Shown here in pieces: positions 1,957 to 31,063 of a DNA stretch of 34,170 bases (position 1 is the first letter of the stretch; every line of letters begins with the position of its first letter). The translations under genes were made by a program, and so were the position numbers. The DNA comes from Ligilactobacillus agilis DSM 20509 (GTDB lineage Bacteria; Bacillota; Bacilli; Lactobacillales; Lactobacillaceae). Below the pieces are notes generated by a model. It saw only the letters and a list, made by a program, of their open reading frames with translations, was not told the origin of the DNA and did no database searches. Location of the stretch: assembly GCF_001436215.1 (NCBI RefSeq), contig NZ_AYYP01000012.1, positions 18,418 to 52,587 of the forward strand. Direction: 5' to 3'.

Positions 1957-1978
1957 ATGATTTAGATTAAACCTTTCT

Positions 1979-4030: not shown

Positions 4031-4080
4031 CAAGTTAAGTATTCGGCTGTAAGCGAATTCGGAAGGTGGGGTGTTTTTGT

Positions 4081-5109
4081 GTGAAAAAGATTGTGACAAT
4101 AATTGTTGGGTTAGTGTTATTAGGAGTGGTTTTTTGGTTTGGGGTTGTCTATTCAAATAACCGCAATCACAAGCAAATCCCAACGGTAGCTATGGTTACC
4201 GACGGGGGCGGTGTCGAAGATGGTTCCTTTAACGCTGCGACTTGGAAAGGGTTAGTAGAATGGGGTAAGGAACATCATGTAGCTAAGGGACCAAATGGTT
4301 ATACCTATGCGCAGTCCCTTTCCGATGCTGACTTTTTCCCTAATATGGATAAGTTGGTCAAAAAGGGATATAACACGATTATTGCGACTGGCTACCGCTT
4401 AACGGATGCGATTAAAAAAGCTTCCCAAAAGTATCCGGATACTAACTTTGTGATGATTGATACCGTAGTTAAGCGTCCTAATGTGGCATCGGTTCAATTT
4501 AGGGATAACGAGGCAGCTTTTTTGGCAGGCGTAGCCGCTGCTTAGACTAGTAAATCCAAGCAGGTCGGCTTTATCGGGGGGACCGATAGTCTGGTTATGG
4601 CTGTCTTTTACAAAGGTTTTGTTCAAGGAGTACATACTGTTGACCCTAATATTAGGATTAATAAAAAGTACGTGGGCACTTTTTCCCAGCCTAGAATTGG
4701 CCAGTCTTTGGCCGCAGCGATGTATGATAACGGAGTTGATGTTATTTACACTGTAGCAGGCGGTTCTGGTGAAGGGGCCTTTACTGCTGCCAAGGCGGTA
4801 AGAAAGAACCTTGGACGTACGGTTTGGGTAATTGGAGTTGACCAAGATCAAAGCGAGCTGGGCGAGTATGACGGTGGTAACGTCACCCTAGCCTCGACTA
4901 TAAAGCGGGTTGATGTTGCGGTTAAAGATATGGCTAACAAGGCGATGACTAAGAAATTTCCTGGAGGCAAGACAATCTATTATGATCTTAGCGACCGTGG
5001 GGTGGACATCGTTAATACTAGCTTGCCTAAAAGTACCTGGAAGTTAATCCAATCATACAAACAGCAAATTATAGCCGGGCAAATTAAGGTGGCGGGTCGG
5101 CAAAGTTAG
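4081..5109 (+). pseudogene. BMP/Med-family nucleoside-binding protein with in-frame TAG
   Basis: Both halves lie in one frame: a hydrophobic N-terminal helix, the TDGGGVEDGSFN motif of basic membrane protein/Med nucleoside receptors, then AGVAAA followed by TAG (4543-4545, codon 155). The frame continues directly as TSKSKQVGFIGGTDS and TVAGGSGEGAFTAAK to the normal C-terminus (total 342 codons plus stop). A single substitution such as CAG to TAG explains it. The start is GTG 4081 with AAGGTGGGG upstream; the GTG at 4066 would sit inside the binding site. The family feeds ABC importers of purine nucleosides. No lipobox Cys is present, so the protein would be held by an uncleaved helix. No matching importer genes are nearby. 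Confidence 0.85.
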
Positions 5110-8256: not shown

Positions 8257-8284
8257 GGTATCACCCCTTAAATATATTGCTAAC

Positions 8285-8318
8285 AATGTTATAATAAGAG
8301 CGGTTCAATTATAACATT
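8285..8318. promoter_or_regulatory. Palindromic divergent promoter between menI and menB
   Basis: AATGTTATAAT (8285-8295) and ATTATAACATT (8308-8318) form a perfect 11-bp inverted repeat with a 12-bp spacer. Each arm contains a TATAAT box, one on each strand (8290-8295 plus, 8308-8313 minus), so the two transcripts would start within the palindrome. TTAAAT (8268-8273) is a weak -35 for menB. The symmetry may also be an operator controlling both sides. Confidence 0.55.
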
Positions 8319-16721: not shown

Positions 16722-16724
16722 ACT

Positions 16725-16760
16725 AAAAGTCACGCATGGAGATTCATGCGTGACTTTTTT
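16725..16760. terminator. Bidirectional intrinsic terminator
   Basis: AAAGTCACGCATG pairs with CATGCGTGACTTT around a six-base loop. T-tracts lie on both sides: TTTTTT on the plus strand and TTTT on the minus strand. It ends cydABCD and the convergent polyprenyl synthase gene. Confidence 0.93.
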
Positions 16761-16762
16761 AG

Positions 16763-17737
16763 TTAGATTTTACGTTTAAGTAAATGGTTGGTTAGTTTAG
16801 TAAGTTGCTTTTTGGTCTGAGACTTAGGTAGGCCCTCAATATCAACCAAGGCTTTGTGGGTAAATTTGCGGGCGACCTCACGAGCAGCATCGACTCCGCC
16901 TAAGGTTCTGACTAGGTTAGCGACGGCCTGCATATCTGCCAACTCCATTTGGTTTTGTTTATCTAAGTATGGTTTAAAAGCTGCCGGCTCTTTTTTTAGG
17001 GCCAAGAGCAGTGGAAGTGTATAGACCCCAGTATTTAGGTCCTCGATGACAGGTTTATTGAAGTCGGCCTGGTTAGCGCTGTAGTCCAAGATATCGTCTA
17101 GCATTTGGAAGGCTAGGCCGATATTAAGCCCGATTCGCCCGGCCCGGCGAACCACTTCGGGGCTAGCCCCACTAAAGTAGGCACCTTCTAAACTGGCCAG
17201 GCGAAAAAGTTCGGCCGTCTTACCAGAGATTGACCGTAAGTAATCGCGAATTGACTGGGTTTGGTTATAGCGGAGCTGCATTTGGTCTAGTTCGCCTAGT
17301 AAAATCTTTTTCATAGCGGCTGCGTTAATCTGCATATAATGAGAACCGTTCATAGTTTCTAAGGTCAAGTCAAAGAAAATGGTAAACAATAAGTCACCAG
17401 TATAAACGGCGATGTTTTTCCCAAATTTAGCTTGGATAGAAACCGTGCCACGCCGTAAGGGGGAGTCGTCAATAATATCATCATGGATTAGGGTCGCCAT
17501 ATGTAAGATTTCTAGGGAAGCGGCGATTTTAGTTAGCCGGTCTTCGTCTTGATTGGGGCCAAAGTTGGTAAATAAAAAGAAAAAGGCCGGACGCAGGTAC
17601 TTACCCCCAGCCTGAGCTAGCTGGGCGACCGCCTGGGAGATTTCTGGATTACGAACTTGGACGCGTTGTTCGATTAGGTTTTTAACTAGCGCAACTTGCT
17701 TTTCTAAAACAGGGTATGTTTTCCAATATGATGACAT
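16763..17737 (-). CDS. Long-chain polyprenyl diphosphate synthase
   Basis: A 324-residue trans-prenyltransferase that builds the isoprenoid side chain of the quinone. GGKYLRP (44-50), the first Asp-rich motif HDDIIDDSPLRRG (D86-D91) and the second, MLDDILDYS (D214-D218), are intact. Small residues before the first motif (HMATLIH) fit a long-chain (hexa- to octaprenyl) rather than a farnesyl enzyme. No partner subunit of the HepS type is next to it, so it is probably homomeric (IspB-like). It is divergent from menA, which uses its product. Chain length cannot be read with certainty. Confidence 0.9.
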   Translation of the reverse strand: MSSYWKTYPVLEKQVALVKNLIEQRVQVRNPEISQAVAQLAQAGGKYLRPAFFFLFTNFGPNQDEDRLTKIAASLEILHMATLIHDDIIDDSPLRRGTVSIQAKFGKNIAVYTGDLLFTIFFDLTLETMNGSHYMQINAAAMKKILLGELDQMQLRYNQTQSIRDYLRSISGKTAELFRLASLEGAYFSGASPEVVRRAGRIGLNIGLAFQMLDDILDYSANQADFNKPVIEDLNTGVYTLPLLLALKKEPAAFKPYLDKQNQMELADMQAVANLVRTLGGVDAAREVARKFTHKALVDIEGLPKSQTKKQLTKLTNHLLKRKI

Positions 17738-17846
17738 GAATAAACCTCTTTACTAACGTTTAGATACAAGTTTAATTCTACCCGTTTAAAAGCTTAAAAG
17801 CTAGTTAAGAAATTAAATTGTAAACGATTTTAATTTGGCAAAATAT

Positions 17847-17875
17847 TTTTCAAATTTAAGAGATTGCTTTATAAT
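17847..17875 (+). promoter_or_regulatory. menA promoter
   Basis: TATAAT (17870-17875) stands about 40 bases before the menA ATG. A poor -35 (TTTTCA, 17847-17852) is at 17 bp. Confidence 0.5.
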
Positions 17876-17914
17876 AATTATGTAAAAGTTTTATTGAGAG
17901 AAGGGTACTTGAAG

Positions 17915-18817
17915 ATGACTGTCCCAGTTTTTTTGGAATTGGTCGAAATGAAAGCTAAGACGGCCAGTGTTTTACCCTTTTTAATTGGTCTTTGTTTTAG
18001 CTATTACTACTATGGTACGGTCCATGTTGCCTATGTTCTCATGTATTTTGTGGCCATGTTTTTATTTAACATGTTCGTCGACATTTGGGATAACTATAAT
18101 GATTATCACCGGGCGGTCGATGTTCATGATTACAAACAAAATACCAATATCATTGGCCGTGAGCACCTATCTTTAGTCCAAGTCAAAACAATAATGGCTT
18201 GCTTTTTTATTAGTTCACTGTTGATAGGGTTAGTGCTAGCCTGGCTAGTAGGCTGGCCCCTGTTGATTATGGGGGGCTTTTGTTTCTTGGTGGGCTTACT
18301 TTATTCGGCTGGACCTAGGCCGTTATCGAGCCTGCCACTAGGTGAATTTTTCTCTGGGTTTACCATGGGCTTTGTAATCAGTTTAATCTGTGTCTACCTC
18401 AACACCTACCAAGATTTTGCTTGGACCTGGGCGAATTTAGGGCGGATTTTGCTAATTGCCTTGCCTAACACACTGTGGATTGCTAATTTGATGTTAGCCA
18501 ATAACCTGTGTGATAAGGAAGAAGACGAAAAAAATCACCGCTACACCCTGGTCCATTACATAGGCTTAAAGGGTGGGCTATGGCTGTTTGCCGGGGCCAA
18601 TGTCGTAGCTTTATTAGCAATTATTGGAGAGTTTTTATGGGGGCTTGCCCCAGCTACAGTTTTGCTGAGTTTACTATTGATTCCATTTATCTACAAGCAA
18701 ACTAAGTTGTTGTGGCAAAAACAAGTAAAAATGGAAACGTTTATCTGTGGAGTAAGGATTCTTGCAGTGGGTTCTTTAACCCAAGTAGTGACTTACTTAA
18801 TCGGAATTATATTGTAA
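17915..18817 (+). CDS. menA: 1,4-dihydroxy-2-naphthoate polyprenyltransferase
   Basis: A 300-residue UbiA-superfamily membrane prenyltransferase that attaches the polyprenyl chain to DHNA, giving demethylmenaquinone. The first Asp motif is NMFVDIWDNYND (residues 52-63) and the second NNLCDKEEDEKNHRYTL; about eight hydrophobic helices surround them. I start at ATG 17915, with AGAAGGG nine bases upstream; the frame opens earlier at 17864 without a binding site and over the -10 box. It leads an operon with ndh and a lipoprotein. Confidence 0.92.
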   Translation: MTVPVFLELVEMKAKTASVLPFLIGLCFSYYYYGTVHVAYVLMYFVAMFLFNMFVDIWDNYNDYHRAVDVHDYKQNTNIIGREHLSLVQVKTIMACFFISSLLIGLVLAWLVGWPLLIMGGFCFLVGLLYSAGPRPLSSLPLGEFFSGFTMGFVISLICVYLNTYQDFAWTWANLGRILLIALPNTLWIANLMLANNLCDKEEDEKNHRYTLVHYIGLKGGLWLFAGANVVALLAIIGEFLWGLAPATVLLSLLLIPFIYKQTKLLWQKQVKMETFICGVRILAVGSLTQVVTYLIGIIL

Positions 18818-18834
18818 AGGAGTTCGTGCTGACT

Positions 18835-20043
18835 ATGAAGGAAGTATTAGTATTAGGTGCAGGTTATGCAGGTTTAAAGACTGTTCGTAATTTGCAAAAG
18901 GAAAGTGGAGATTTCCACATCACTTTAGTTGATATGAATGACTATCACTATGAAGCAACTGAGTTACACGAAGTTGCTGCTGGTTCTCAACCAAAGGATA
19001 AGATTACATACCCGATTAGAGATGTCTTAAACGACAAGAAGGTTACCTTCTTACAAGACGAAGTTACTAAGATTGACCCAGCTAATAAGTTGGTATCAGT
19101 TAAGAAGAATGGTAGTCTCCACTATGACTACGTGGTTGTTGCCCTAGGTTTTTGCTCAGAAACATTTGGTATCAAAGGGGCCCAAGAAAATGCCTTGCAA
19201 ATGGTTGACATTGATACTGCCGAAGCAATTCACCAACACATCATCGCCATGATGAAGAAATACAAGGAAACTAAGGATAAGAACTACCTCAAGTTACTTA
19301 TCTGTGGGGCTGGTTTTACCGGGATTGAATTAGCTGGGGCTTTCGTTGACGAACGCAAGAAGTATGCCCAAATTGCCGGCGTAGATGAAAGTGAAATCGA
19401 AATTATCTGTGTAGAAGCAGCTACCCGGATTTTACCAATGTTTGATGATGAAATGGCTCAATACGGGGTTAACCTAATTAAGAAATTAGGGGTTAACTTG
19501 ATGACGGGCTGCATGATTAAGGAAATCCGTCCAGGGCAAGTTGTTTACGCTAAGGGCAAAGATGATCCAGAAGAACATGTAGTAGAAGCAGCTACAATCG
19601 TTTGGACTACTGGTGTCAGTGGTAGCCCTGTTATCGGTGAATCTGGCTTTGAACAACGTCGGGGTCGGGTAATGGTTAAGCCTAACTTAACTGCCCCAGA
19701 TTATGATGATGTTTACATTATCGGGGACGTTTCCGCATTAATGGATTCAGCTTCTAACCGGCCATTCCCAACTACTGCTCAAATCGCAACCCGGATGGGA
19801 GCTCACGTAGCTACTAACTTAGCTCACCAATTAAAGGGAGAAGCAACAGAAGACTTCGACTTCAAGTCACTAGGGACAGTTGCTTCCGTAGGTAACACCC
19901 ACGCCTTTGGGGTGGTTGGTACTAAGAAAATCAAGGGGTACCCTGCTTCCTTTGTTAAGAAGGCAATCATGAACAAGTCTTTAGTTGATATTGGTGGTTT
20001 GAAGGAATTATTAGCCAAGGGACGTTTTGATTTGTACCACTAA
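18835..20043 (+). CDS. ndh: Type II NADH dehydrogenase
   Basis: A 402-residue flavoprotein that oxidises NADH and reduces the quinone without pumping protons. FAD-binding VLGAGYAGLKTV (6-17), NADH-binding LLICGAGFTGIELAG (154-168), the AAATIVWTTGV-type segment and the FAD contact VYIIGDVSALMD are all present. The C-terminal membrane-anchoring helix is modest. AAAGGAG overlaps the menA stop but lies 12 bases before the chosen ATG; a GTG at 18826 is closer than usual. Placement after menA ties it to the same respiratory chain. Confidence 0.92.
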   Translation: MKEVLVLGAGYAGLKTVRNLQKESGDFHITLVDMNDYHYEATELHEVAAGSQPKDKITYPIRDVLNDKKVTFLQDEVTKIDPANKLVSVKKNGSLHYDYVVVALGFCSETFGIKGAQENALQMVDIDTAEAIHQHIIAMMKKYKETKDKNYLKLLICGAGFTGIELAGAFVDERKKYAQIAGVDESEIEIICVEAATRILPMFDDEMAQYGVNLIKKLGVNLMTGCMIKEIRPGQVVYAKGKDDPEEHVVEAATIVWTTGVSGSPVIGESGFEQRRGRVMVKPNLTAPDYDDVYIIGDVSALMDSASNRPFPTTAQIATRMGAHVATNLAHQLKGEATEDFDFKSLGTVASVGNTHAFGVVGTKKIKGYPASFVKKAIMNKSLVDIGGLKELLAKGRFDLYH

Positions 20044-20078
20044 AAAATGTCCCGACGTCAAGATTGGGGGAAAAGGCT

Positions 20079-20984
20079 ATGAAAAAAACGTTGATAGTTT
20101 CGTTAGCAGCCTTAGCCTTAGTGTTAGCGGGCTGTGGTAACCAAGCGGAGAATCAAACGCAAGCTACTAGCAGCGATAAGGTTTCCACGAGCCAAAAGAA
20201 GCAAGCACAGACTAAAAAAGCAAGTTCTACTAGTAGTTCAAGTTCGGTTTCTAGTCAAAGCAGTAGTGAAACAGGTAGTAGTCAAGCTCAAAGTAGAGCT
20301 ACTAGTTCGAGTGCACCTGACTACTCTGGTCAGGTACAGATTTCAGCAACGCAAAACTTGCAGCGGCTAGGCCAGTTTAATTACTTGCTAAAGTATAACT
20401 TAGGTAAGGAGATTGTGCTTCCTAATAATCCAGGTTATAACGACGAAAGTAAGAAGTTAAACGTCTGGTATGAAGGTGATGGCAACAACTATAGTATTCA
20501 CTACAGCCAGGCTGCCAGTGGTCAAGACTTTAACGCTAATAGTTTGCGTGATGTGACCGATTATGCCGTCTTTACCAAGAAGACCTATGGTTCCGCTAGC
20601 GAAGCCCAGGCTGAGATCAATTACCAAACGACAGCCATGACCCAAGGTCTACCTAAGGTTAACCTGGGGTATGGAATTATTGGGACGATTGATTCCGGGG
20701 CAGGTCAAAAGTACTTGCACTGGAATGAAGGTCGCTGGTCTTTAGGTGTCCACGCAGTGGCAGTCAATGGTGAGGATCCGGTACCAACTGCCCGCAAAGT
20801 AGTGGAACTGTTAGAGCAGTATTACTTACCTGCTCCGGATAATTATGGATCTGGTAGCTTTAGTGTAGCTAGTTCTAGTGGCCAACAGGCACCTACCTTA
20901 AAGTGGCAGGCTGGTAATAGCGTTTATAGCCTGGAAGCCAAGGATTTAACTGTATTAGTTAGAATGGCTTCAACTGTCAAATAA
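20079..20984 (+). CDS. Lipoprotein of unknown function downstream of ndh
   Basis: A 301-residue secreted lipoprotein: MKKTLIVSLAALALVLAGC with the lipobox LAGC. A Ser/Gln/Thr-rich linker runs to about residue 80. A globular C-terminal part follows that I do not recognise (KYNLGKEIVLPNNPGY, LHWNEGRWSLGVHAV, ARKVVELLEQYYLPA). There is no heme CxxCH and no FMN-binding motif. It begins 35 bases after ndh with a GGGGGAAAAGG binding region and precedes a terminator, so it is co-transcribed with menA-ndh. The context hints at a role at the outer face of the membrane in the redox system, but nothing in the protein proves it. Confidence 0.85.
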   Translation: MKKTLIVSLAALALVLAGCGNQAENQTQATSSDKVSTSQKKQAQTKKASSTSSSSSVSSQSSSETGSSQAQSRATSSSAPDYSGQVQISATQNLQRLGQFNYLLKYNLGKEIVLPNNPGYNDESKKLNVWYEGDGNNYSIHYSQAASGQDFNANSLRDVTDYAVFTKKTYGSASEAQAEINYQTTAMTQGLPKVNLGYGIIGTIDSGAGQKYLHWNEGRWSLGVHAVAVNGEDPVPTARKVVELLEQYYLPAPDNYGSGSFSVASSSGQQAPTLKWQAGNSVYSLEAKDLTVLVRMASTVK

Positions 20985-23116: not shown

Positions 23117-23944
23117 GTGAAACAATTAAAGTGGTCAAACTTGTATTTAACCCTAGTCTTTATCTTCTTATACTTGCCCATCGCCTACTTGATTTTTTAC
23201 TCCTTCAATGCTGGCGATTCGATGAGTAGCTTTAAGGGCTTTTCCTTGGTTCACTTTCAAGAGTTATTTGGTGATACCCGCCTCATCATCATCTTGCTTA
23301 ACACCTTTATGTTAGCCTTTTTATCTGCCTTAATTGCGACAGTGATTGGCATCTTTGGGGCCATGAGCATTTACTACCTCAAGAAACGGGCAGCTAAGAC
23401 AGCGATGCTTTCGGCTAATAACGTCTTAATGGTTTCACCTGACGTTATTATCGGGGCCAGCTTCTTGATTTTCTTTACCTTTTTAGGTAATCTTTTTTCT
23501 GGCTTTGGCCTTGGTTTTACCACGGTACTGTTATCGCACATTGCCTTCAGTATCCCGATTGTAGTCTTGATGGTCTTGCCAAAATTACAGGAAATGAATG
23601 ACTCAATGATTTCGGCCGCCTATGACTTGGGAGCTAATAATTGGCAAATCTTAACCAACGTTATCTTGCCTTATCTAACCCCAGGAATTATCGCGGGTTA
23701 CTTTATGGCATTTACCTATTCGCTTGATGATTTTGCCGTGACCTTCTTCGTGACGGGGAATGGCTTTACCACTTTGTCTGTAGAAATTTACTCACGGGCG
23801 CGGCAGGGGATTAGCTTAGAAATCAATGCCCTCAGTACCTTAGTCTTCCTCTTTTCCTTGGTGTTAGTGGTGGGCTACTACTTCATTAGTAAAGATAGTC
23901 GGAAGCGCCGCGGTAAGAAGAGAAGGGGGGCGTTACTTAAATGA
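23117..23944 (+). CDS. potC: Spermidine/putrescine ABC importer, permease PotC
   Basis: A 275-residue permease with six helices and the EAA loop ISAAYDLGANNWQILTNVILPYL. I choose GTG 23117, one base after potB ends, with GGGGG eight bases upstream; the frame is open to 23090 but without a binding site. Its TGA overlaps the potD ATG. Confidence 0.92.
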   Translation: MKQLKWSNLYLTLVFIFLYLPIAYLIFYSFNAGDSMSSFKGFSLVHFQELFGDTRLIIILLNTFMLAFLSALIATVIGIFGAMSIYYLKKRAAKTAMLSANNVLMVSPDVIIGASFLIFFTFLGNLFSGFGLGFTTVLLSHIAFSIPIVVLMVLPKLQEMNDSMISAAYDLGANNWQILTNVILPYLTPGIIAGYFMAFTYSLDDFAVTFFVTGNGFTTLSVEIYSRARQGISLEINALSTLVFLFSLVLVVGYYFISKDSRKRRGKKRRGALLK

Positions 23945-25014
23945 AAAAACTCCGTTCACTTTTAATTGGCATTATTGTTATCATTATAGTCTTGGTGGTA
24001 GGGGCCTATGAACTCAATAAATCGACGGGCCAGGCCGGAGCAAAGATTGTTAATATTTATAACTGGGGTGATTATATTGACCCGGCTTTAATAACTAAGT
24101 TTGAAAAGGAAACAGGTTATAAAGTTAACTACGAAACCTTTGACTCTAACGAGGCGATGTATACCAAGATTCAGCAGGGAGGGACTAGCTACGACATAGC
24201 GGTCCCAAGTGAATATATGGTGGAAAAGATGAGAAATGACCACCTCTTAGTCAAGTTAGACAAAAAGAAGTTACCTAACCTTAAATACATTGGGAAGGAA
24301 TACTTAAACGAAAGCTTTGATCCCCATAATGCCTATTCAGTTCCTTATTTCTGGGGAACGCTGGGTATCATTTATAATGATAAATATTATCAGGCCAGTG
24401 ATGTTGATACTTGGGCTAAGTTATGGAATCCGCGCTTTAAAAATCAAATCATGTTTATTGATGGAGCCCGTGAGTTTATTGGAATTGGGCTCAGTAGCCT
24501 AGGTTACTCGCTTAACAGCACCAATGATAAGCAGGTTGAACAGGCCTATGAAAAATTGAAATCCTTAACTCCGAATGCTAAGGCAATAGTTTCCGATGAA
24601 ATTAAGATGTACATGGTTAACGGGGAAAGTAACCTAGCTGTAACCTACTCTGGTGAAGCGGTGGATATGCTGTCCAAAAATAAGCACCTTCACTATGTTA
24701 TTCCAGAGGAAGGAACCAACCTGTGGTTTGATAACATCGTAATTCCTAAGGGGGCTAAGAACTTGAAGGGGGCTTATGCCTTCATTAACTTCATGCTCCG
24801 TCCGGAAAATGCCGCTCAAAATGCTGAGTACGTCGGGTACTCAACGCCTGATGAAGGGGCGTTGAAGTTATTGCCTAAGTCAGTAACTGGGGATAAACAA
24901 TTCTATCCAAGTAAGCAACAGTTAGCTAAGATGGAAGTTTATAAGAACTTAGGGCCTAAGTGGCTGGAGCGCTATAACGATCTGTTCTTGGAATTAAAGA
25001 TGTACCGGAATTGA
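23941..25014 (+). CDS. potD: Spermidine/putrescine-binding protein PotD
   Basis: A 357-residue extracellular solute-binding protein. After an N-terminal hydrophobic helix comes VNIYNWGDYIDPALITKFEKETGYKVNYETFDSNEAMYTKI, the hallmark PotD start, and later VTYSGEAVDML and PENAAQNAEYVGYSTP. There is no lipobox Cys, so an uncleaved membrane anchor seems to hold it at the surface. The ATG overlaps the potC stop (ATGA), the last coupling in potABCD. It ends upstream of a candidate sRNA gene whose terminator would also stop pot transcripts. Confidence 0.93.
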   Translation: MKKLRSLLIGIIVIIIVLVVGAYELNKSTGQAGAKIVNIYNWGDYIDPALITKFEKETGYKVNYETFDSNEAMYTKIQQGGTSYDIAVPSEYMVEKMRNDHLLVKLDKKKLPNLKYIGKEYLNESFDPHNAYSVPYFWGTLGIIYNDKYYQASDVDTWAKLWNPRFKNQIMFIDGAREFIGIGLSSLGYSLNSTNDKQVEQAYEKLKSLTPNAKAIVSDEIKMYMVNGESNLAVTYSGEAVDMLSKNKHLHYVIPEEGTNLWFDNIVIPKGAKNLKGAYAFINFMLRPENAAQNAEYVGYSTPDEGALKLLPKSVTGDKQFYPSKQQLAKMEVYKNLGPKWLERYNDLFLELKMYRN

Positions 25015-25059: not shown

Positions 25060-25091
25060 TTCACAAAATCTTCACTTCCACTCGGTATAGT
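25060..25091 (+). promoter_or_regulatory. Direct-repeat promoter of sRNA candidate A
   Basis: TTCACA (25060-25065), five bases, TTCACT (25071-25076), nine bases, then TATAGT (25086-25091). The 11-bp period and fixed distance to the -10 resemble sites of OmpR-type response regulators such as PhoP or CiaR. The same spacing occurs at 30666 and 30892. Confidence 0.6.
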
Positions 25092-25097
25092 ATAAGC

Positions 25098-25215
25098 ATA
25101 CCCAATAAATAAAAAACTTTTTCATAGATATTTCTTCCCCTAAAAGAAATAAATACTCCTTTTGAATAAAGGTCTCGTACTAAGGATAATTCCTTGGTGC
25201 GAGACCTTATTTGTT
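25098..25215 (+). ncRNA. Candidate small RNA A (CCCCU-loop, anti-SD family)
   Basis: Predicted transcript of about 115 nt between potD and a convergent hydrolase. It has an A-rich 5' part ending in AAACTTTTTCAT. Next is an 8-bp hairpin, TATTTCTT/AAGAAATA (25129-25151), with a seven-base loop CCCCTAA. A single-stranded ACTCCTTTT (25155-25163), complementary to strong Shine-Dalgarno sites, precedes an intrinsic terminator. No ORF with a binding site is present. Blocks and order are shared with candidate B, which argues for a selected RNA. I cannot match it to a named RNA family. Confidence 0.55.
25165..25215. terminator. Intrinsic terminator of sRNA A, also serving the convergent hydrolase gene
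   Basis: AAGGTCTCGTACTAAGGA pairs with TCCTTGGTGCGAGACCTT, with G-U pairs and loop TAAT, followed by ATTTGTTT. The hydrolase stop codon (25207-25209) lies in the right arm. Confidence 0.85.
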
Positions 25216-26241
25216 TAGGGCTGCAAACAGTGGTAAATCGAAGGTATAGTTGACTCCGCCCTTGGTGTAAGCAGTAACGTTTGACTGGACTAGGACGGCC
25301 TGCTGCCCGTCAGGACTGATGGTAACCGAAGTTTCGTCCCCTAACTGGGTTCCGTGTAAATGATAGACGCCAGACTGAAGGTGGTAAAAGCCGGCACTAT
25401 AATAGGGAAAAGCAGCAGTAGGTGGCTTATTATAAAGGGTGGCTGTTAAGTTTGGAGCCAGTAGCTTACTTTGTAAAAAGGCGGCTAAGAGGTAATAAAG
25501 GTCACGACCATTCATGGCTACCTGTCCAGCTCCGTAGTTATTATAAGGATTATAGTCTGTTTGGCTAAAGAAGCCACCTCTTAGGTAGGAATAGCTTTTA
25601 AGGGCGGTGGCTTGCATTAAGTCCAAGTGGATGCCTAGTGGGGTAGTTATGGCTTGCTTCAAAAAAGTAGCATAGGATTGACCGCTAACTTGGGTGATGA
25701 TGCCAGCTAGTAAATTATAGTTGTAGGAAGAATAGTGCCAGCTGTTAATATTTTGCGGGTCAATCTTAGCCTGGTGTACCAGGTCTGTTAGGTAAGTCTG
25801 GTAAGAGTCATAGTGCTTATGTAGAGAAAAATAGCTAGTATCAAGGCCTGAACGGTGATTAAGTAGCTCAGCTAAGGTGACCTTGCTTGCTCCAGGTAGA
25901 TTAGGATAATAAGTGGCTAAGCGGTCAGTTAAAGCTAGCTTCTTATTTTGGGCTAAAAGAGCGATTAATTGAGCGGTAATGGCTTTGGAAACCGAACCAA
26001 TCATATATGGGGTAGTAGCCGTGTTTTTGACTTTAGTCTGGTAATTTTGGTAACCATTTGAAATTTGGGCAATAATCTGACCATTTTTGACCAGGGTAAT
26101 AGTCCCGGCAAAATGTTTCTGTTTAATCAGTTTGTGTGCCAGCTTAATGGCGTGGGTATTAGGGTTAGTTTGGGCCTTGGTAGTTATAGGATTACTTACA
26201 AGCAAGGCCACCAAGATAAGCATCAAGTTAAACTTTTTCAT
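25207..26241 (-). CDS. Secreted serine hydrolase of the beta-lactamase/class C PBP-like fold
   Basis: A 344-residue protein with a signal peptide (MKKFNLMLILVALLVSNPITTKA). The nucleophile motif is SVSK (Ser83, Lys86). The second motif reads YSS where most members have YSN (Tyr171), and HGTQLGDE near the end replaces the KTG box. Such proteins act as D-Ala-D-Ala carboxypeptidase-like or esterase enzymes on the cell surface; none of the residues shows true beta-lactamase activity. AAGGTGG lies seven bases before the ATG. It stands alone, with its own promoter. Confidence 0.85.
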   Translation of the reverse strand: MKKFNLMLILVALLVSNPITTKAQTNPNTHAIKLAHKLIKQKHFAGTITLVKNGQIIAQISNGYQNYQTKVKNTATTPYMIGSVSKAITAQLIALLAQNKKLALTDRLATYYPNLPGASKVTLAELLNHRSGLDTSYFSLHKHYDSYQTYLTDLVHQAKIDPQNINSWHYSSYNYNLLAGIITQVSGQSYATFLKQAITTPLGIHLDLMQATALKSYSYLRGGFFSQTDYNPYNNYGAGQVAMNGRDLYYLLAAFLQSKLLAPNLTATLYNKPPTAAFPYYSAGFYHLQSGVYHLHGTQLGDETSVTISPDGQQAVLVQSNVTAYTKGGVNYTFDLPLFAALNK

Positions 26242-26270
26242 GTTGAGCCACCTTAAATTAAATTGCCTTT

Positions 26271-26279
26271 ATTGTAGCA
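26271..26279 (-). promoter_or_regulatory. Extended -10 of the serine hydrolase gene
   Basis: The minus strand reads TGCTACAAT, an extended -10 box, about 30 bases upstream of the ATG. The -35 is poor. Confidence 0.4.
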
Positions 26280-26333
26280 GGTAAAGTTAAATAATCATTA
26301 ACCAGGAAAGAAAAAATTACTAAAGCTAGCTAG

Positions 26334-26363
26334 TTGGTAAATAGAAATTGTTGGCGCTATAAT
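26334..26363 (+). promoter_or_regulatory. Promoter of the GalT-like gene
   Basis: TTGGTA (26334-26339) and TATAAT (26358-26363) with an 18-bp spacer, 34 bases before the ATG. Confidence 0.6.
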
Positions 26364-26397
26364 TTACTTAAGAAATCAACTAGGTAGGTGAAGCTTA

Positions 26398-27186
26398 ATG
26401 ACCCCCTTAGAATTTATTCCCGCCATTGCGCAGCAAAAACCGACTAATCAAGATGCCTGCCCCTTTTGTAACCTGGCCAGCCTGGAGAAAATCATTGATC
26501 AAACGGGTGATTTCTTGTGGTTGGATAATAAGTACCCGACCATCAAGGATACCTACCAAACCCTGGTGATTGAAAGCCAGGAGCACCTCGGAGATATTAG
26601 CAACTATTCCTATGCTTATAATAGGCGCTTATTTAATTATCTTTGGGACTGTTTTGATAAGTTGCAGGCCACCGGAGCTTACCAAAGTGTGGTAATGTTT
26701 CGTAATTTTGGGCCAAGGTCGGGGGGCAGTTTGCGCCATCCCCATACCCAAATTATCGGTTTTGACCACGTAGATGCCTACGAGCAACTTGAGGAAGCTA
26801 ATTTCTTAGGAAAAGAATTATTAGCGGAAACGACGGCCAGTCCTGAAATTACCCTTTCTCGTCAGCCTTTGATAGGTTTTAGTGAATTTAACGTGCTAGT
26901 TTCGAAGCGACAAGCCCTAGCCAAGTTAGCTGATGGGGTGAAAGAATTGGTCGGCTACCTAATGACGGCATATTTTAACGGGCGGTGTGATTCCTATAAC
27001 CTCTTTTTTTATGAACGGCCAGGAAAGTTTATCTGTAAGGTGGTTCCCCGCTTTATTGCCTCGCCTTACTACATTGGTTATAAACTGCCCCAAGTTGATG
27101 ATGCAGTTAGGCAAGCGGAAGTGAAAGCAGAATTTTTCGCTTACCGGGCGCAATTAAGAAAGGATTTGTTAGATGAAGAAGCGTAA
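26398..27186 (+). CDS. GalT-like HIT-superfamily protein (DUF4931 type)
   Basis: A 262-residue protein related to galactose-1-phosphate uridylyltransferase. CPFC (21-24) is a half zinc site. RHPHTQIIG (His114, His116, Gln118) is the nucleotidyl-transfer HPHxQ motif, with the family's FRNFGPRSGGSLRHPH lead-in. It is shorter than true GalT, and there are no gal genes beside it, so it may transfer or hydrolyse another nucleotide ester. AGGTAGGTG precedes the ATG. The next small gene overlaps its last 14 bases. Confidence 0.8.
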   Translation: MTPLEFIPAIAQQKPTNQDACPFCNLASLEKIIDQTGDFLWLDNKYPTIKDTYQTLVIESQEHLGDISNYSYAYNRRLFNYLWDCFDKLQATGAYQSVVMFRNFGPRSGGSLRHPHTQIIGFDHVDAYEQLEEANFLGKELLAETTASPEITLSRQPLIGFSEFNVLVSKRQALAKLADGVKELVGYLMTAYFNGRCDSYNLFFYERPGKFICKVVPRFIASPYYIGYKLPQVDDAVRQAEVKAEFFAYRAQLRKDLLDEEA

Positions 27187-27355
27187 CTTATGGTTGGGCT
27201 TGGGTTGGTTTGTCCTTGCCTTAGCGATTGGAGCCGTGCTAATGTACCGTTTTACACATTCAGGCCATATGGGGATTGGGCCCGTTAGAAGTTTTAAGCT
27301 AATGGCTTTAATGGTGGCGGCTTTAGCGGCTGCAATTTACCAGTTTAATAAATAA
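27173..27355 (+). CDS. Small two-helix membrane protein
   Basis: A 60-residue protein of two hydrophobic helices (LWLGLGWFVLALAIGAVLMY and LMALMVAALAAAIYQF) joined by a short His/Gly-containing loop. Its ATG lies within the end of the GalT-like gene with AAAGG upstream, implying coupled translation. I recognise no family. Overlap, binding site and a terminator right after it support a real gene. Confidence 0.65.
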   Translation: MKKRNLWLGLGWFVLALAIGAVLMYRFTHSGHMGIGPVRSFKLMALMVAALAAAIYQFNK

Positions 27356-27401
27356 GGCCTGGTATCTCTTCCAATTTTGGGTGAGATACCAGGTCTTATT
27401 T
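27350..27401. terminator. Bidirectional terminator
   Basis: AAATAAGGCCTGGTATCTC pairs with GAGATACCAGGTCTTATTT with one G-U pair. It lies between the small membrane gene and the convergent MFS gene, with T-rich flanks on both strands. Confidence 0.88.
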
Positions 27402-27410
27402 ACTTACTGC

Positions 27411-28760
27411 TTACTTACTTTTGATAAATAGGGCTAATCCTAAGCCACAGAGCTCGAGAACTAGCATGGTATAACAGACGTAACTAAAAGCAGTTAAGGT
27501 TGCGGCTAGGTGTGTTAGGCCTAGCAGTTGTTGGTGGTCACTAACCTGGGTGAGGATGATGGTTGCTAGGGCAACGCCAGCGGAGCCTAGCACCTGCCGG
27601 ACGGTCGTAATAACAGCTGTTCCATGTGAAACTAACTTGGGAGAAAGAAAGTTAGAACCGAGGGTGATAGCAGGCATCATTACAAAGGCGTTACCTCCTT
27701 CGATGATGGCAGCACAGATTATCATCAAGGTTAGTGATTGAAAGGAGAGCAGGTTACTTGTTAAGTACCAACCACCGCTAATCATAATCAGTCCAATTAA
27801 AATGGTGGGTTTGAAACCAAGGTGGTCGGCTAATTTACCGGCTAAAAAATTAAGGAGACTTAAAAAGACTGCTCCAGGGACCAGGGCTAAGCCTGAAATA
27901 AAGGGCGATACCCTTAGGACACCTTGATAATAAAGGGGAAAGATAATGGTGACTACGATTAAGGCAATGTAGGAACAAGCGGTTAATAGGAGGGCAAGGT
28001 CATAGTTGAAACTCTTCAAAACCCGTAGGTCTAAAAGGGGACTAGTAGCTTGTAGTTGCCGGTAAACAAATAAAGCTAGTAGCACTAAACTGACTACTAA
28101 TAGACCGAGGTTAACTTTGAGATTACCTGTTCCCTTAGCCAGGCTGTTAAAGACATATACTAACCCAATTAAACCAAGCGAGAAGAAAACAGAATACCAA
28201 TCTAATTTGCTGGGATGACGGGGCATGACGTCTTTAATGAAGCCACTGGCTGCTAAAATAATAACCAGGGAAATAAGGGAGATGAAGACGACAAAGAGGC
28301 TTTGCCACTTGAAGAATTTCAGAATTAAACCGGAAATAATGGGGCCACAAGCTAGCGCGGAGCCCATGACTAATCCGGCAAGCCCCATGGTACTACCACG
28401 TTTGGCTGGCGGGGTAATTGTTAGGAGGACCGTTTGGTAGGAAGGAAATAAAATCCCGACAGCAAAGGCTTCTAAAATGCGGCCAAGCATCATGATGGCG
28501 AAGCCAAAACTTTGCAGTTTTAACGGGGTTAAGACAATAATTAAGGACCCCAAGTCAAATAAGATGAGGGCTCCTAGAAACATCGTTTTGAAAGAAAAGT
28601 TATTCAGCAACCAGGGACTTAAGGGCATACTAATGCACATTACGAGCATAAAGCCGGTAGTAAGCCATTGGATAGTGGCTGCTGATAAGTGAAAGGCACT
28701 CATTAAGGTGGGATAGGCAGTCGACAGGGCGGATTGACTAATCGACATATCTAGATCCAT
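27411..28760 (-). CDS. DHA2-type MFS multidrug exporter with short N-terminus
   Basis: A 449-residue transporter of the EmrB/QacA/LmrB group. Helices from STAYPTLMSAFHLSAATIQWLTTGFML, the motif A-like region, motif C GLVMGSALACGPIISG and later helices are normal. The usual first helix (about 15-20 hydrophobic residues before the D..I.NVALPT motif) is missing: the protein begins MDLDMSISQSALSTAYP. An in-frame TAG lies just upstream, AGGAG is nine bases before the ATG, and a TTGACA/TATAAT promoter gives a start about 20 bases upstream, so the short form is what the cell would express. Substrate unknown. Confidence 0.85.
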   Translation of the reverse strand: MDLDMSISQSALSTAYPTLMSAFHLSAATIQWLTTGFMLVMCISMPLSPWLLNNFSFKTMFLGALILFDLGSLIIVLTPLKLQSFGFAIMMLGRILEAFAVGILFPSYQTVLLTITPPAKRGSTMGLAGLVMGSALACGPIISGLILKFFKWQSLFVVFISLISLVIILAASGFIKDVMPRHPSKLDWYSVFFSLGLIGLVYVFNSLAKGTGNLKVNLGLLVVSLVLLALFVYRQLQATSPLLDLRVLKSFNYDLALLLTACSYIALIVVTIIFPLYYQGVLRVSPFISGLALVPGAVFLSLLNFLAGKLADHLGFKPTILIGLIMISGGWYLTSNLLSFQSLTLMIICAAIIEGGNAFVMMPAITLGSNFLSPKLVSHGTAVITTVRQVLGSAGVALATIILTQVSDHQQLLGLTHLAATLTAFSYVCYTMLVLELCGLGLALFIKSK

Positions 28761-28785
28761 TTTTAAACACTCCTAAATAATAAAA

Positions 28786-28812
28786 ATTATAAATTAATCC
28801 TTTCGGTGTCAA
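28786..28812 (-). promoter_or_regulatory. Promoter of the DHA2 exporter gene
   Basis: On the minus strand TTGACA (28807-28812) and TATAAT (28786-28791) are 15 bp apart. Transcription should start near 28779. Confidence 0.6.
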
Positions 28813-28852
28813 TTATAGGAGCAATTTCGATAAATGTAAATATAACTAGTTT

Positions 28853-29623
28853 TTAAAACCAGAGAAATTCTAAGTAGCGTTGGTTTTGTTCTTGCCAGCT
28901 AGCTTCGTTGTGTTGACCATACTCTTGTAAGTAGAAGTAGGTTTTAGCCCCCTTTGCCTGCAAGGCGGCTTCGAGGCTGAGATTGCGTTTGACGGCCGGA
29001 GTCTGGAATGGGTCAAGCTGATTTTGGTTTGCCTGGGCTTCGAGTTGCCCGATTGAAAGGTAGAAACGCGAATCGTCATTAAGTTCTTGCTTACTAAGGT
29101 TGGTCATCAGTTCTTCAAAATTAAAGCTAAGTGCAGACGATAGGCAGGCCATCTTAGAAAAGTAATTATTAAAGGCAATTCCTGCGTAAGCTGCCATTAA
29201 ACCACCCATACTAGAGCCGGCAATTCCGGTTGCTTCTCTAAAGGGATAGGTGCGAAATTTTTGATCGATATAAGGCTTTAGTTCTGAAACTAACCAATTT
29301 AAAGTCTCCTTGCCGTAAGCTTCTATCTGGCCAAAGGGTTCTTCGAAAAATGAGTAGGGAGAATACTCGGCCAAACGTTGGTTACCTTGGTGGCTACACT
29401 CAATGCCTACGACAATCATTTTTTTAGGCCAAACATCAAGAAAGTCTTTTAGGCCCCAAGAGGTTCCAAAGCTAGCTTCGTAATCGAAAAACAGGTTTTG
29501 ACCATCGAAGTAATACATGCAGGGATAAGCTTCTTGGCTTTGATAGTAATCGTCAGGCAAATAGATATGTAAAGTGCGACTAGAGTTAGCAGGAGTAAAG
29601 GGAAAATCTTTAGTAACAATCAT
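28853..29623 (-). CDS. Alpha/beta-hydrolase, putative esterase (esterase D/Fes-like)
   Basis: A 256-residue cytosolic hydrolase of the putative-esterase family (PF00756 type). Lead-in LHIYLPDDYY...YPCMYYFDGQNLF, nucleophile elbow GIAGSSMGGLMA (Ser138) and the catalytic His in EYGQHNEASW near the C-terminus are clear. Relatives hydrolyse S-formylglutathione, siderophore or acetyl-xylan esters. GAGG stands eight bases before the ATG. It is downstream of treR on the same strand, but a strong terminator separates them. Confidence 0.85.
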   Translation of the reverse strand: MIVTKDFPFTPANSSRTLHIYLPDDYYQSQEAYPCMYYFDGQNLFFDYEASFGTSWGLKDFLDVWPKKMIVVGIECSHQGNQRLAEYSPYSFFEEPFGQIEAYGKETLNWLVSELKPYIDQKFRTYPFREATGIAGSSMGGLMAAYAGIAFNNYFSKMACLSSALSFNFEELMTNLSKQELNDDSRFYLSIGQLEAQANQNQLDPFQTPAVKRNLSLEAALQAKGAKTYFYLQEYGQHNEASWQEQNQRYLEFLWF

Positions 29624-29686
29624 ATTGACGACCTCGCTTTAGTGTTGTTGCCTTAATTTTAGTTAGCTAGGAAAAATTTAGCAAGT

Positions 29687-29729
29687 AAAAAAACAGTGAC
29701 TAGCCTTGAAGTGAAGGCTAGTCACTGTT
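29687..29729 (-). terminator. Intrinsic terminator of treR
   Basis: A perfect 16-bp stem, AACAGTGACTAGCCTT and AAGGCTAGTCACTGTT, with a six-base loop, followed on the minus strand by seven T residues. Confidence 0.94.
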
Positions 29730-29733
29730 AAGC

Positions 29734-30462
29734 TTAGCTACGAGCGGCATTCTTTCTGCGCTCGAAATCGATAAACTTGAACTTATCTGGACGCTGGTAG
29801 GAAGTTGTCAGTTGGAATAACCGGGTGTCATCCAAATAAGACATACTTCGAATCACAGCGGCATAGTGATCATCTGTTAGTTTGAGAATTTTGGCAATCC
29901 GCTCAGGTACCCGTTCAACGGTAATCTCTTTTGTTGAATAAGAGATGTTAAGGCCTAAGGTTCTCTCGAGGTAACTGTAAAGTGAATTGATTACATCTGC
30001 CTTGGTGATGATGGGAACGGCTTCTTTGAACAGGAACTCTTGGTTTAGCACACTGGGAATATTATCAATATAGCGCAAGTGTTCCACGTAGTATGAAGGC
30101 GCCCGCCTGTTTAAATTATGTCCCCCAAAAGTAGAAGGCGATGTCCGTTCACTTAGGTTTAAAACCTCAATGTCGCTAGACTTACCTTGTTGCTTATCGA
30201 AGTCCTTAAAGCTTACCACCCCAGAAATAGGGAAGGTAAAGTTTTGAACGTCTAAGACAAGTGACCCCTTGCCCCGAATTTTTTGAATCAGCCCTAGGCT
30301 AGTTAACTGAGCTAACGCTTTCCGGACTGTTTCACGAGAAGTACCATATAACTCACACAAACGATGTTCACTAGGCAAGTAGTCACCAGGTTTATATTGA
30401 GCAAAACGAATTTTTTGAATAATATCTTGTGCAATAATTTCTTTTTTTGATTGGACTGGCAT
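29734..30462 (-). CDS. treR: GntR-family trehalose operon repressor
   Basis: A 242-residue GntR/HutC regulator. The winged helix covers residues 5-70 (LPSEHRLCELYGTSRETVRKALAQLTSLGLIQKIRGKGSLVL). It is followed by FPISGVVSFKDF, a stretch I associate with TreR, and a UTRA ligand domain to the end. In B. subtilis TreR senses trehalose-6-phosphate and represses treP/treA. I start at ATG 30462 with AAAGGGG nine bases before it; an ATG at 30495 overlaps the -10 box. No trehalose transporter or hydrolase lies in the window, so it acts at a distance. Confidence 0.8.
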   Translation of the reverse strand: MPVQSKKEIIAQDIIQKIRFAQYKPGDYLPSEHRLCELYGTSRETVRKALAQLTSLGLIQKIRGKGSLVLDVQNFTFPISGVVSFKDFDKQQGKSSDIEVLNLSERTSPSTFGGHNLNRRAPSYYVEHLRYIDNIPSVLNQEFLFKEAVPIITKADVINSLYSYLERTLGLNISYSTKEITVERVPERIAKILKLTDDHYAAVIRSMSYLDDTRLFQLTTSYQRPDKFKFIDFERRKNAARS

Positions 30463-30493
30463 GTTACTGATCCCCTTTAGTATGAACAATATC

Positions 30494-30522
30494 ATTATAT
30501 GCCAATTTAATTAGCTAGACAA
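30494..30522 (-). promoter_or_regulatory. treR promoter
   Basis: On the minus strand TTGTCT (30517-30522) and a perfect TATAAT (30494-30499) with a 17-bp spacer. Confidence 0.75.
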
Positions 30523-30665
30523 GTTATAGACCTTAAAATAACGGTAAAGTTAGGGGAGTTAGATTTACTTAGTGTACAAGTTATTGGGCGGAGTTGGAGG
30601 TCTTAATAGCAGCCAAAATGGAGAGGATAATTTTACTTACTATTTTTCAGAGTTCTTTTCCAAAA

Positions 30666-30697
30666 TTCACACTTTCTTCACAAAATAAGTGTACTAT
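30666..30697 (+). promoter_or_regulatory. Direct-repeat promoter of sRNA candidate B
   Basis: TTCACA (30666-30671), five bases, TTCACA (30677-30682), nine bases, then TACTAT (30692-30697). AGCATA follows 18 bases after the second repeat, exactly as at candidate A. Confidence 0.6.
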
Positions 30698-30703
30698 ACA
30701 AGC

Positions 30704-30848
30704 ATAGGCTAATAACCAAAATAAACTTTTTTCATTTACTTATCTCCCCTATAGATAGGAAATGATGAAGAAAAATTACTGTTTCCCCTAACAGTGATTT
30801 TATTACTCCTTTTTTCACCGTAACTTCTCCTGGTTACGGTGTTTTTTT
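30704..30848 (+). ncRNA. Candidate small RNA B (two CCCCU-loop hairpins)
   Basis: Predicted transcript of about 145 nt. It shares AAACTTTTTTCAT with candidate A. Hairpin 1 (30739-30759) has stem CTTATCT/AGATAGG and loop CCCCTAT. Hairpin 2 (30775-30798) has stem ATTACTGTT/AACAGTGAT and loop TCCCCT. ACTCCTTTT (30805-30813) then follows, and an intrinsic terminator whose loop also contains CTCC. Exposed C-rich loops and an anti-Shine-Dalgarno stretch point to pairing with ribosome binding sites of mRNAs. There is no credible ORF. Confidence 0.6.
30816..30848 (+). terminator. Intrinsic terminator of sRNA B
   Basis: CACCGTAAC (30816-30824) pairs perfectly with GTTACGGTG (30833-30841), followed by TTTTTTT. 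Confidence 0.93.
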
Positions 30849-30891: not shown

Positions 30892-30923
30892 TTTACAAAA
30901 AATTTACACAAATTATATATACA
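30892..30923 (+). promoter_or_regulatory. Third direct-repeat promoter, upstream of the GNAT gene
   Basis: TTTACA (30892-30897), five bases, TTTACA (30903-30908), nine bases, TATACA (30918-30923): the same geometry as at both sRNA candidates. An extended -10 TGCTATAAT at 30938-30946 may provide a second start. Confidence 0.55.
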
Positions 30924-30929
30924 AAAAGT

Positions 30930-31027
30930 AAGTTAGTTGCTATAATTAAAAAGCAGACTAGGAGAGTTTCCAGTTTTGTTGGCGGATTAACGCTTTAATT
31001 AGGGAAATTCTACTTGGTCTATTTTTT
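30930..31027 (+). ncRNA. Terminated leader or third small RNA upstream of the GNAT gene
   Basis: A long interrupted stem pairs AGACTAGG...GAGTTTCC (30955-30971) with GGAAATTC...CTTGGTCT (31003-31020), followed by ATTTTTT (31021-31027). An inner GCG/CGC hairpin lies in the loop. This can stop transcription 37 bases before the GNAT ATG. It is either an attenuator or a separate RNA. It lacks the CCCCU loops of A and B. Confidence 0.45.
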
Positions 31028-31063
31028 GTGTAAAACTTATTCTTATGAAAAGAGGTGTCTGAA

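Follow-up and report, generated by a model that had tools for sequence, protein, structure and literature searches.

The DNA analysed here, called the window throughout, is a stretch of 34,170 nucleotides from Ligilactobacillus agilis DSM 20509 (G000:C44:18418-52587), whose genome, G000, comprises 2.06 Mb in 72 contigs. An initial annotation had proposed that two intergenic regions of the window, termed A and B, encode related small RNAs (sRNAs) built on one shared plan and complementary to the Shine-Dalgarno (SD) sequence of mRNAs. This proposal was borne out, as promoter, 5' arm, C-rich loops, anti-SD stretch and terminator are found in both regions. A and B are real, conserved sRNA genes; their start and end positions are predicted, and likewise the transcripts. 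The bit scores of A and B in the list below refer to R2, a sequence-only family model that is partly built from A and from B, and these two scores are not independent of it.

25060..25076, +: copy A direct repeats TTCACA-N5-TTCACT, a probable LisR box, in the register of most of the 33 copies
25086..25091, +: copy A putative -10 element TATAGT
25096..25216, +: copy A sRNA gene, ~121 nt with predicted ends, 55.4 bits to R2
25116..25125, +: copy A ACUUUUUCAU, antisense of AUGAAAAAGU (start codon and Lys codons), kept in alignment A3
25129..25151, +: copy A hairpin of 8 bp with the loop CCCCUAA at 25137-25143, from folding
25155..25163, +: copy A single-stranded ACUCCUUUU (anti-SD), from sequence and folding
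25164..25216, +: copy A intrinsic terminator, overlapping the stop codon of the convergent gene 25207-26241
30666..30682, +: copy B direct repeats TTCACA-N5-TTCACA, a probable LisR box
30692..30697, +: copy B putative -10 element TACTAT
30702..30848, +: copy B sRNA gene, ~147 nt with predicted ends, 54.9 bits to R2, with sub-threshold Rfam matches to Ref84 and LhrC
30725..30735, +: copy B ACUUUUUUCAU, antisense of AUGAAAAAAGU
30732..30765, +: copy B hairpin 1 with the loop CCCCUAU at 30746-30752, from folding
30772..30801, +: copy B hairpin 2 with the loop UCCCCU at 30784-30789, from folding and comparison with the L. ubinensis orthologue
30805..30815, +: copy B single-stranded ACUCCUUUUUU (anti-SD), from sequence and folding
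30816..30848, +: copy B intrinsic terminator with the loop UUCUCC, from folding

The window has exactly two occurrences of the core of the direct repeats, TTCACA-N5-TTCAC, one starting at 25060 and the other at 30666, compared with 0.02 expected from shuffles. As initially described, AGCATA lies 18 bases past the second repeat in A and B, and AAACTTTTT(T)CAT, ACTCCTTTT and an intrinsic terminator were each found in A as well as in B. Both copies have ACTTTTT(T)CAT in common, and their arm stretch UUUUUCAU is, beside the CCCC loops, the part predicted to contact targets. By itself, AAACTTTTT(T)CAT is unspecific, with 6 matches in the whole genome versus 5 for the backward control; specificity comes from its combination with the promoter boxes and the CATA start. 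AAACTTTTT(T)CAT alone and AGCATA-N-CTTTTT-CAT were accordingly discarded as search patterns, their matches being mostly chance-like. Scanning the window with Rfam at Rfam's own cut-offs gave no match.

A pattern search first gave a third copy in G000, on contig C64, and one copy in the genome G009. The sequence-only model R1 consists of these two copies together with A and B and was searched over 26 congeneric genomes, where it brought the number of strong copies in G000 to five. The model R2 combines 28 copies of both types, window-type and Ref84-type, and contains zero Listeria sequences; E-values of both models are rough, as their calibration was short. G000 holds five copies (A, B, C, E and F), each with E ≤ 1.3e-12 to R2, among whose training copies all five are found. 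They lie at five places on three contigs, namely C44 twice (A and B), C64:15119, C64:8415 and C69:50618. Both genes of the initial annotation are real, their number having been set too low. Among the congeneric genomes, G009 carries about five copies and G019 about six, and G010, G020, G006, G023, G018, G003 and G011 carry one or two; the remaining 16 of the 26 gave weak matches only (not every one was inspected).

At L094, L095 and L096 (G001, G018 and G003), a shorter variant was observed that has promoter repeats of similar kind and a AAATAACATCCCTAGTTATTT hairpin but no CTTTTTCAT arm. Near copy C, locus L067 contains a T-box leader at 1756-1978 (-), which at 88 bits is just under its cut-off of 93, and a tetrahydrofolate (THF) riboswitch at 2275-2369 (+), which at 51 bits is over its own.

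Both regions are intergenic, and A lies downstream of a solute-binding protein gene on the same strand (23941-25014), which could suggest that A and B are not free sRNAs but belong to neighbouring genes, either as 5' leaders or as terminated pieces of read-through. We regard this as very improbable: A and B each have their own predicted promoter and terminator, copies stand at five places on three contigs, and relatives carry tandem arrays of free-standing copies. A is also convergent with the gene 25207-26241 and, because of this orientation, cannot be its leader. Slightly less credible still is the idea that CUUUUUCAU-CCCCU is kept because its complement is a small minus-strand gene, with an SD sequence and an MKK peptide, and not because of a plus-strand RNA. 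The complement does resemble a ribosome-binding site followed by ATGAAAAAG, and in G009 it would read MKKVLMLLAML. However, the frames, judged by eye, are very short and unequal (17 codons in A, 8 in B, 3 in C and 11 in G009), and promoter repeats, -10 elements, terminators and C-rich loops all indicate the plus strand in the printed copies.

Folding bore out the CCCCU loops that had been described, one in A and two in B; the terminator loop of B also contains CUCC. Whole transcripts of A and B both fold with a z-score of -7.0, and B without its terminator is still significant (z -4.5, reached by 0/200 shuffles). Across 28 folded transcripts, a C-run is present in 52/80 hairpin loops, compared with 10.2/61.9 in dinucleotide shuffles, and 49/108 C-runs are placed in loops, compared with 9.2/76. 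Before the loops were counted, three transcripts (A, C and G009_C76) were shortened by trimming, and that of G020 was re-cut by hand at its terminator.

Compensatory changes in stems around invariant loops had been named by the initial annotation as support for a selected RNA structure, and they were found in the orthologues of copies E and B. Covariation was counted on three E orthologues and a single B orthologue pair. In copy E, 8/30 pairs are changed on both sides (0/500 shuffles match), 96.6% of cells remain paired and CCUAA in loop 2 is kept; the structure used was folded from one of the three orthologues, a choice that favours the result. In hairpin 2 of B, 5/12 pairs are altered on both sides with respect to the L. 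ubinensis orthologue, the loop is the same and UUUCCCCUAA is identical; with two sequences only, this value is reached by 22/500 shuffles. A MAFFT alignment of 13 first hairpins was too poor in quality for covariation and was dropped.

We then consider the distribution of these RNAs in the order Lactobacillales. At E ≤ 0.001, R2 finds matches in 242/395 sampled genomes and 53/80 genera, where weak matches may be chance and ten candidates per genome were scored. All 13 training genomes are among the 242, and 229/382 match when they are excluded; several genomes reach at least 10 matches, the ceiling of this count. Common to most of the printed copies are TCAYA-N6-TTCAYA, a -10 element, CAUACC..AAYAAC, ACUUUUUCAU and, as an anti-SD loop or stretch, either CCCCU or CUCCUCC. 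In most of 33 copies, the repeats of the promoter stay in a single register; the G009_C76 and G142 copies have a poor box, and in G019_C12_190529 and G085 it is shifted by 1-2 bases. Outside the genus, R1 matches Desemzia incerta (two copies), Pisciglobus halotolerans and Lapidilactobacillus achengensis. An exact-pattern scan listed 80 of at least 119 stretches, of which 16 were tested with R1, and four of these carry likely copies (L174, L123, L164 and L149); R2, applied to all 80, gave the same four. These 80 loci, preselected by the pattern, also served as a specificity control: R2 gave five matches in Lactobacillales, at 30-48 bits, of which three are training copies themselves or have a sequence identical to one. 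The next locus, from Lachnospiraceae, scored 21.6 bits (E 9.6e-5), and others followed at ≤18 bits. Because of the score of this locus, isolated R2 matches near 20 bits are not to be trusted.

The Rfam family Ref84 (RF02846), known from Enterococcus, has matches in 68/198 genomes of the order at E ≤ 0.01, 22 of them above the cut-off, and sometimes in tandem. It stands in Rfam without a clan, and its name was found neither in PMC3166299 (partial text) nor, by a term search, in PMC10117718. In G000 itself, the Ref84 model has no match at E ≤ 0.01. Tandem arrays of three or four near-identical Ref84/LhrC-like genes were observed at L307, L308 and L309 (G119, G056 and G039), with a spacing of ~195 bp in G056 and G039 and 212 bp in G119; G048 (L310) has several at uneven distances. 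The enterococcal RNA Ern0160/Ref19C was set aside by description, not by sequence, since its reported pairing lies within coding sequence (PMC12870237, partial text).

A link to a characterised sRNA came from the genome family f8, the members of which are called Listeria here from the presence of LhrC. Although R2 contains no Listeria sequence, it gave 2-7 matches in each of 11/11 of these genomes. Thirty f8 loci were fetched, and 17, spanning all 11 genomes, were scanned with Rfam; 17/17 contain LhrC (RF00616), which scores 90-142 bits and in most cases is arranged in tandem. Within the set of f8 loci plus the window, 24/24 R2 matches outside the window fall on LhrC genes, at 22-36 bits. Four weaker matches in the Listeria-like genomes lie outside arrays (E 0.001-0.007), and the R2 match of locus L408 is at a contig end, ~100 bases from the LhrC gene there. 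Because a Listeria-free model recovers LhrC genes in 11/11 genomes, we conclude that the window RNAs and listerial LhrC share descent, as judged from promoter and 5' arm. The initial annotation had correctly seen the same principle in LhrC and had not recognised the window sequences as such; the R2 result goes further and points to homology. Papers describe LhrC as conserved among Listeria species (PMC4132741 and PMC4691137, partial texts), and in the literature on LhrC together with Enterococcus or Lactobacillus, with subscription journals mostly outside the scope, no paper linking LhrC to other genera was found. In the opposite direction, the LhrC model has no match in G000 at E ≤ 0.001, and a direct LhrC search of 398 class genomes gave one sub-threshold match only, located by eye beside the end of groEL.

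As to the regulator, four places of the genome carry the exact box TTCAYAN5TTCAYA: it stands at B, at copies E and F, and once inside a reading frame. Only exact matches were used, and they have no separate control. The box of copy E consists of three overlapping pairs with four half-sites, and those of A and C have one mismatch each. Degenerate repeats and CATA also lie upstream of an HtrA-like gene, G000:C52:7384 (R2 E 1.7e-4), which encodes trypsin and PDZ domains and has serine protease HtrA as its best NCBIfam match, under the curated cut-off. One regulator of G000 stands in the order gnd, response regulator (RR), histidine kinase (HK), yidC, which is the same in the LhrC-bearing genome G165 and which we take to be the lisRK locus; in G161, gnd, RR and HK are together and yidC was not seen there. 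This LisR orthologue shares 78-79% identity with the counterpart found in three Listeria-like genomes, the next best hit there reaching 45-46%, and the stretch that is presumably its recognition helix is the same in 8 aligned sequences except for one I/V change. In Listeria, LhrC1-5 need LisR (PMC4132741, partial text) and htrA is LisR-regulated (PMC6305404, partial text). We infer that the LisR orthologue reads TTCACA-N5-TTCACA and would drive the copies as well as htrA.

The same sRNA family might instead be driven by another regulator of the OmpR type, e.g., PhoP under phosphate starvation. Boxes of Bacillus PhoP are TTNACA repeats with 11-bp spacing, which the repeats here resemble; seven OmpR-family regulators are present in the genome, one of them PhoP-like by its start and position as judged by eye, and a TTTACA-N5-TTTACA pair lies nearby at 30892-30908. 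We nevertheless consider this alternative unlikely, as the putative recognition helix of the LisR orthologue is kept, the HtrA-like gene of G000 has a related promoter, and LhrC itself is LisR-dependent (PMC4132741, partial text).

Between B and the GNAT gene, 30892-31032 (+) is a further possible small RNA or leader. Its TTTACA-N5-TTTACA repeats are followed by a TATATA box and then by a single long hairpin of ~108 nt ending in a U-run, with a folding z-score of -4.3 and 0/200 shuffles as stable.

The putative function of the RNAs follows from a feature that the initial annotation had missed. The conserved ACUUUUUCAU precedes CCCCU on its 5' side, an order in which the two are antisense to AGGGG-N-AUGAAAAAGU, and the arm matches not only the SD sequence but also the start codon and the first Lys codons. 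Because the arm ACUUUUUCAU...CCCCU is antisense to starts of the type SD-AUG-Lys-Lys, repression of exported proteins would be expected. Some weak congeneric R1 matches fall antisense to lipoprotein starts, e.g., MKKGTVLGMLALSLILAGCGN in G019 and MKKVILLGMSALTALSLSACQ in G009; about half of 22 weak antisense R1 matches inspected lie on exported-protein starts, the others on or inside other genes.

Pairing was computed for 403 genes in 400 kb of G000 plus the window, classified by a simple caller into 10 lipoprotein ('lipo'), 24 secreted, 25 membrane and 344 other calls. GGGG in the SD region was present in 13/34 exported versus 61/344 other starts (p 0.011), and the start ATGAAAAA in 5/34 versus 6/344 (p 0.0014). 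The mean pairing energy of the five arms favours the 34 exported over the 344 other starts by 3.07 kcal/mol, compared with 1.10 +/- 0.29 for shuffled arms (largest 1.79 of 100). For lipo calls, the preference is 4.99 kcal/mol, compared with 1.59 +/- 0.53 in shuffles (largest 3.04). Taken singly, the arms of A, B and E had their exported value reached by 0 of 100 shuffles, and reversed arms gave smaller differences between exported and other starts in all five copies. Two predicted targets lie in the window.

4081..4545, +: start of a Bmp/PnrA-like exported protein, rank 1/403 by mean pairing energy
20079..20984, +: lipoprotein MKKTLIVSLAALALVLAGCGN with the SD sequence GGGGG, rank 3/403 by mean energy and 2/403 for copy B

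TcsA presumably belongs to the Bmp family. It is a known target of LhrC (PMC8079631, partial text). An oppA-like gene (L336:8726-10345, SBP_bac_5) ranks 50/403 by mean pairing energy. A translation block by pairing, as proposed initially, is predicted from the computed preference for exported starts; the four targets named at the time are not supported: the DUF1002 gene ranks 302nd, treR 294th and the CPBP gene 211th among the 403 starts, and menI, taken as the thioesterase gene 7891-8286, ranks 190/403.

The Bmp/PnrA-like gene at 4066-5109 (+), for a substrate-binding protein, appears split into frames 4066-4545 and 4597-5109, the first spanning profile positions 3-119 of 301, which may reflect a pseudogene or a sequencing error. 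The lipoprotein gene 20079-20984, the product of which has no Pfam or NCBIfam match, belongs to a cluster (10819-20984, +) of a cytochrome bd-type oxidase subunit, CydD, a prenyl-diphosphate synthase, a UbiA prenyltransferase and a pyridine-nucleotide oxidoreductase; it looks like a respiratory or extracellular-electron-transfer locus.

Taken together, A and B are, with good probability, two of five copies of a trans-acting sRNA that is homologous to LhrC, driven by LisR, and represses mRNAs of exported proteins under envelope stress. Envelope stress would activate LisK-LisR, and LisR would bind TTCACA-N5-TTCACA before each sRNA gene and a weaker form of it before htrA. A short RNA would then begin near GCAUA and stop at its own terminator. 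Its CCCCU/CUCC loops and ACUCCUUUU, a structure backed by comparison, would be exposed and make first contact with G-rich SD sequences. Upon opening of the stem, the arm CAUACC..AAUAAC..ACUUUUUCAU..CCCCU may pair along SD, AUG and first codons, which would block translation. Preferred targets would be mRNAs of lipoproteins and other exported proteins, leading to less traffic into the stressed envelope. A similar course is described for LhrC4 and lapB, where loops contact first and the 5' side of stem A enters the final duplex, which covers -21 to +7 (PMC4132741, partial text), a span that includes the AUG.

Several observations weigh against this reading. Without its terminator, A does not fold significantly (z -1.25; 21/200 shuffles fold equally well), and its hairpin therefore rests on comparison with relatives and not on energy. 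Convincing copies are present in only ~10/26 congeneric genomes. The box with one mismatch is rarer in the genome than its backward control (37 vs 58), counts on which a larger regulon from box search was rejected, and the upstream region of the LisR orthologue itself shows no box. The LisR-responsive element of lhrC5 was mapped upstream of -53 (PMC4132741, partial text), whereas the box here lies at about -36 to -20, with four half-sites only in some copies (copy E and one G009 copy). For the target test, a simple caller of genes and signal peptides was applied to ~21% of the genome, and mRNA accessibility was ignored; at least 3 of the 10 lipo calls look wrong, many top-ranked starts were not called exported, and the exported preference was equalled by 3/100 shuffles for copy F and 1/100 for copy C.

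The two window genes belong to a large, mostly unrecognised LhrC-related family. That LhrC is one branch of an order-wide, LisR-driven family, which restrains secretion without Hfq when the envelope is stressed, is a broader proposition that we hold at even chances. Equally balanced, to our mind, is the part of this reading that concerns the basic form of the family: an almost perfect antisense of the start that exported proteins have in general (SD, AUG-Lys-Lys and first hydrophobic codons), in at least 10 copies in some genomes. If LhrC and Ref84 are one family, found in the majority of the Lactobacillales genera sampled (53/80), lactobacilli, Carnobacteriaceae (Desemzia), Ref84-bearing enterococci and Listeria would share a largely unstudied layer of envelope-stress control. 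Such a layer could explain how one conserved two-component system lowers many surface proteins without its binding site, and it would offer a common explanation for many unannotated intergenic RNAs.

Compared with known systems, the window RNAs are, by their scores, divergent relatives of LhrC and Ref84; since they lie below both Rfam cut-offs, they are a variant rather than members of either family. For LhrC (cut-off 110 bits), B scores 28.1 bits and A has no listed match. LhrC1-5, Rli22 and Rli33-1 share with the window family the promoter layout, a CCCC/UCCC loop and a CU-rich single-stranded stretch, where UCCC is found in loop A of both A and B and the single-stranded stretch has only UCC (ACUCCUUUU). 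Further likenesses are a terminator at times with a C-rich loop, multiple and tandem copies (five in G000), a LisR orthologue and predicted exported targets. The LhrC 5' arm CAUAAGCUAAYAAC...ACWUUUUYCAU is nearly identical in two Ligilactobacillus copies of G009, CATAAGCTAACAACAAGCAAAACATTTTCATTCTTC-CCC in LhrC aligning with CATAAGCTAATAACACAAATAACTTTTTTCATAATACTTCTCCC in G009. In contrast, the number of C-loop hairpins varies and the stems are not alignable.

The hosts also differ in Hfq. A search of G000 found no Hfq gene, so Hfq cannot take part there; lactobacilli are said to lack it (PMC4132741, partial text). LhrC1-5 bind Hfq, while Rli22 and Rli33-1 do not, and pairing of LhrC with mRNA is reported to be Hfq-independent (PMC8079631, partial text); Hfq binding is hence not family-defining, and the window RNAs, if they act as proposed, would exemplify such control working without it. 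Ref84 resembles the window RNAs in its 5' arm type CAUACCAACAACAACC..CUUUUU..UUUCAUUUUACUC, in ACUCCUUUU and in the terminator; B scores 30.8 bits and the Desemzia copy 43.9, both under the cut-off of 52. It differs in that its high-scoring loci of G051, G153, G161 and G169 have no clear TTCACA box and no CCCC loop.

The comparison with streptococcal csRNAs, which the initial annotation had also drawn, fails on the promoter: the CiaR box is TTTAAG-N5-TTTAAG, and the window repeats TTCACA-N5-TTCACA contain none. No csRNA-named family is among the matches listed by an Rfam scan at E ≤ 10. CiaR-driven csRNAs do resemble the window RNAs in having several copies per two-component system and the anti-SD motif CCUCCU (PMC4691137, partial text). 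If the proposed role holds, the family would be a Gram-positive counterpart of RybB and MicA, with many lipoproteins lowered at once. These two sRNAs of the sigma-E response shut off outer-membrane proteins.

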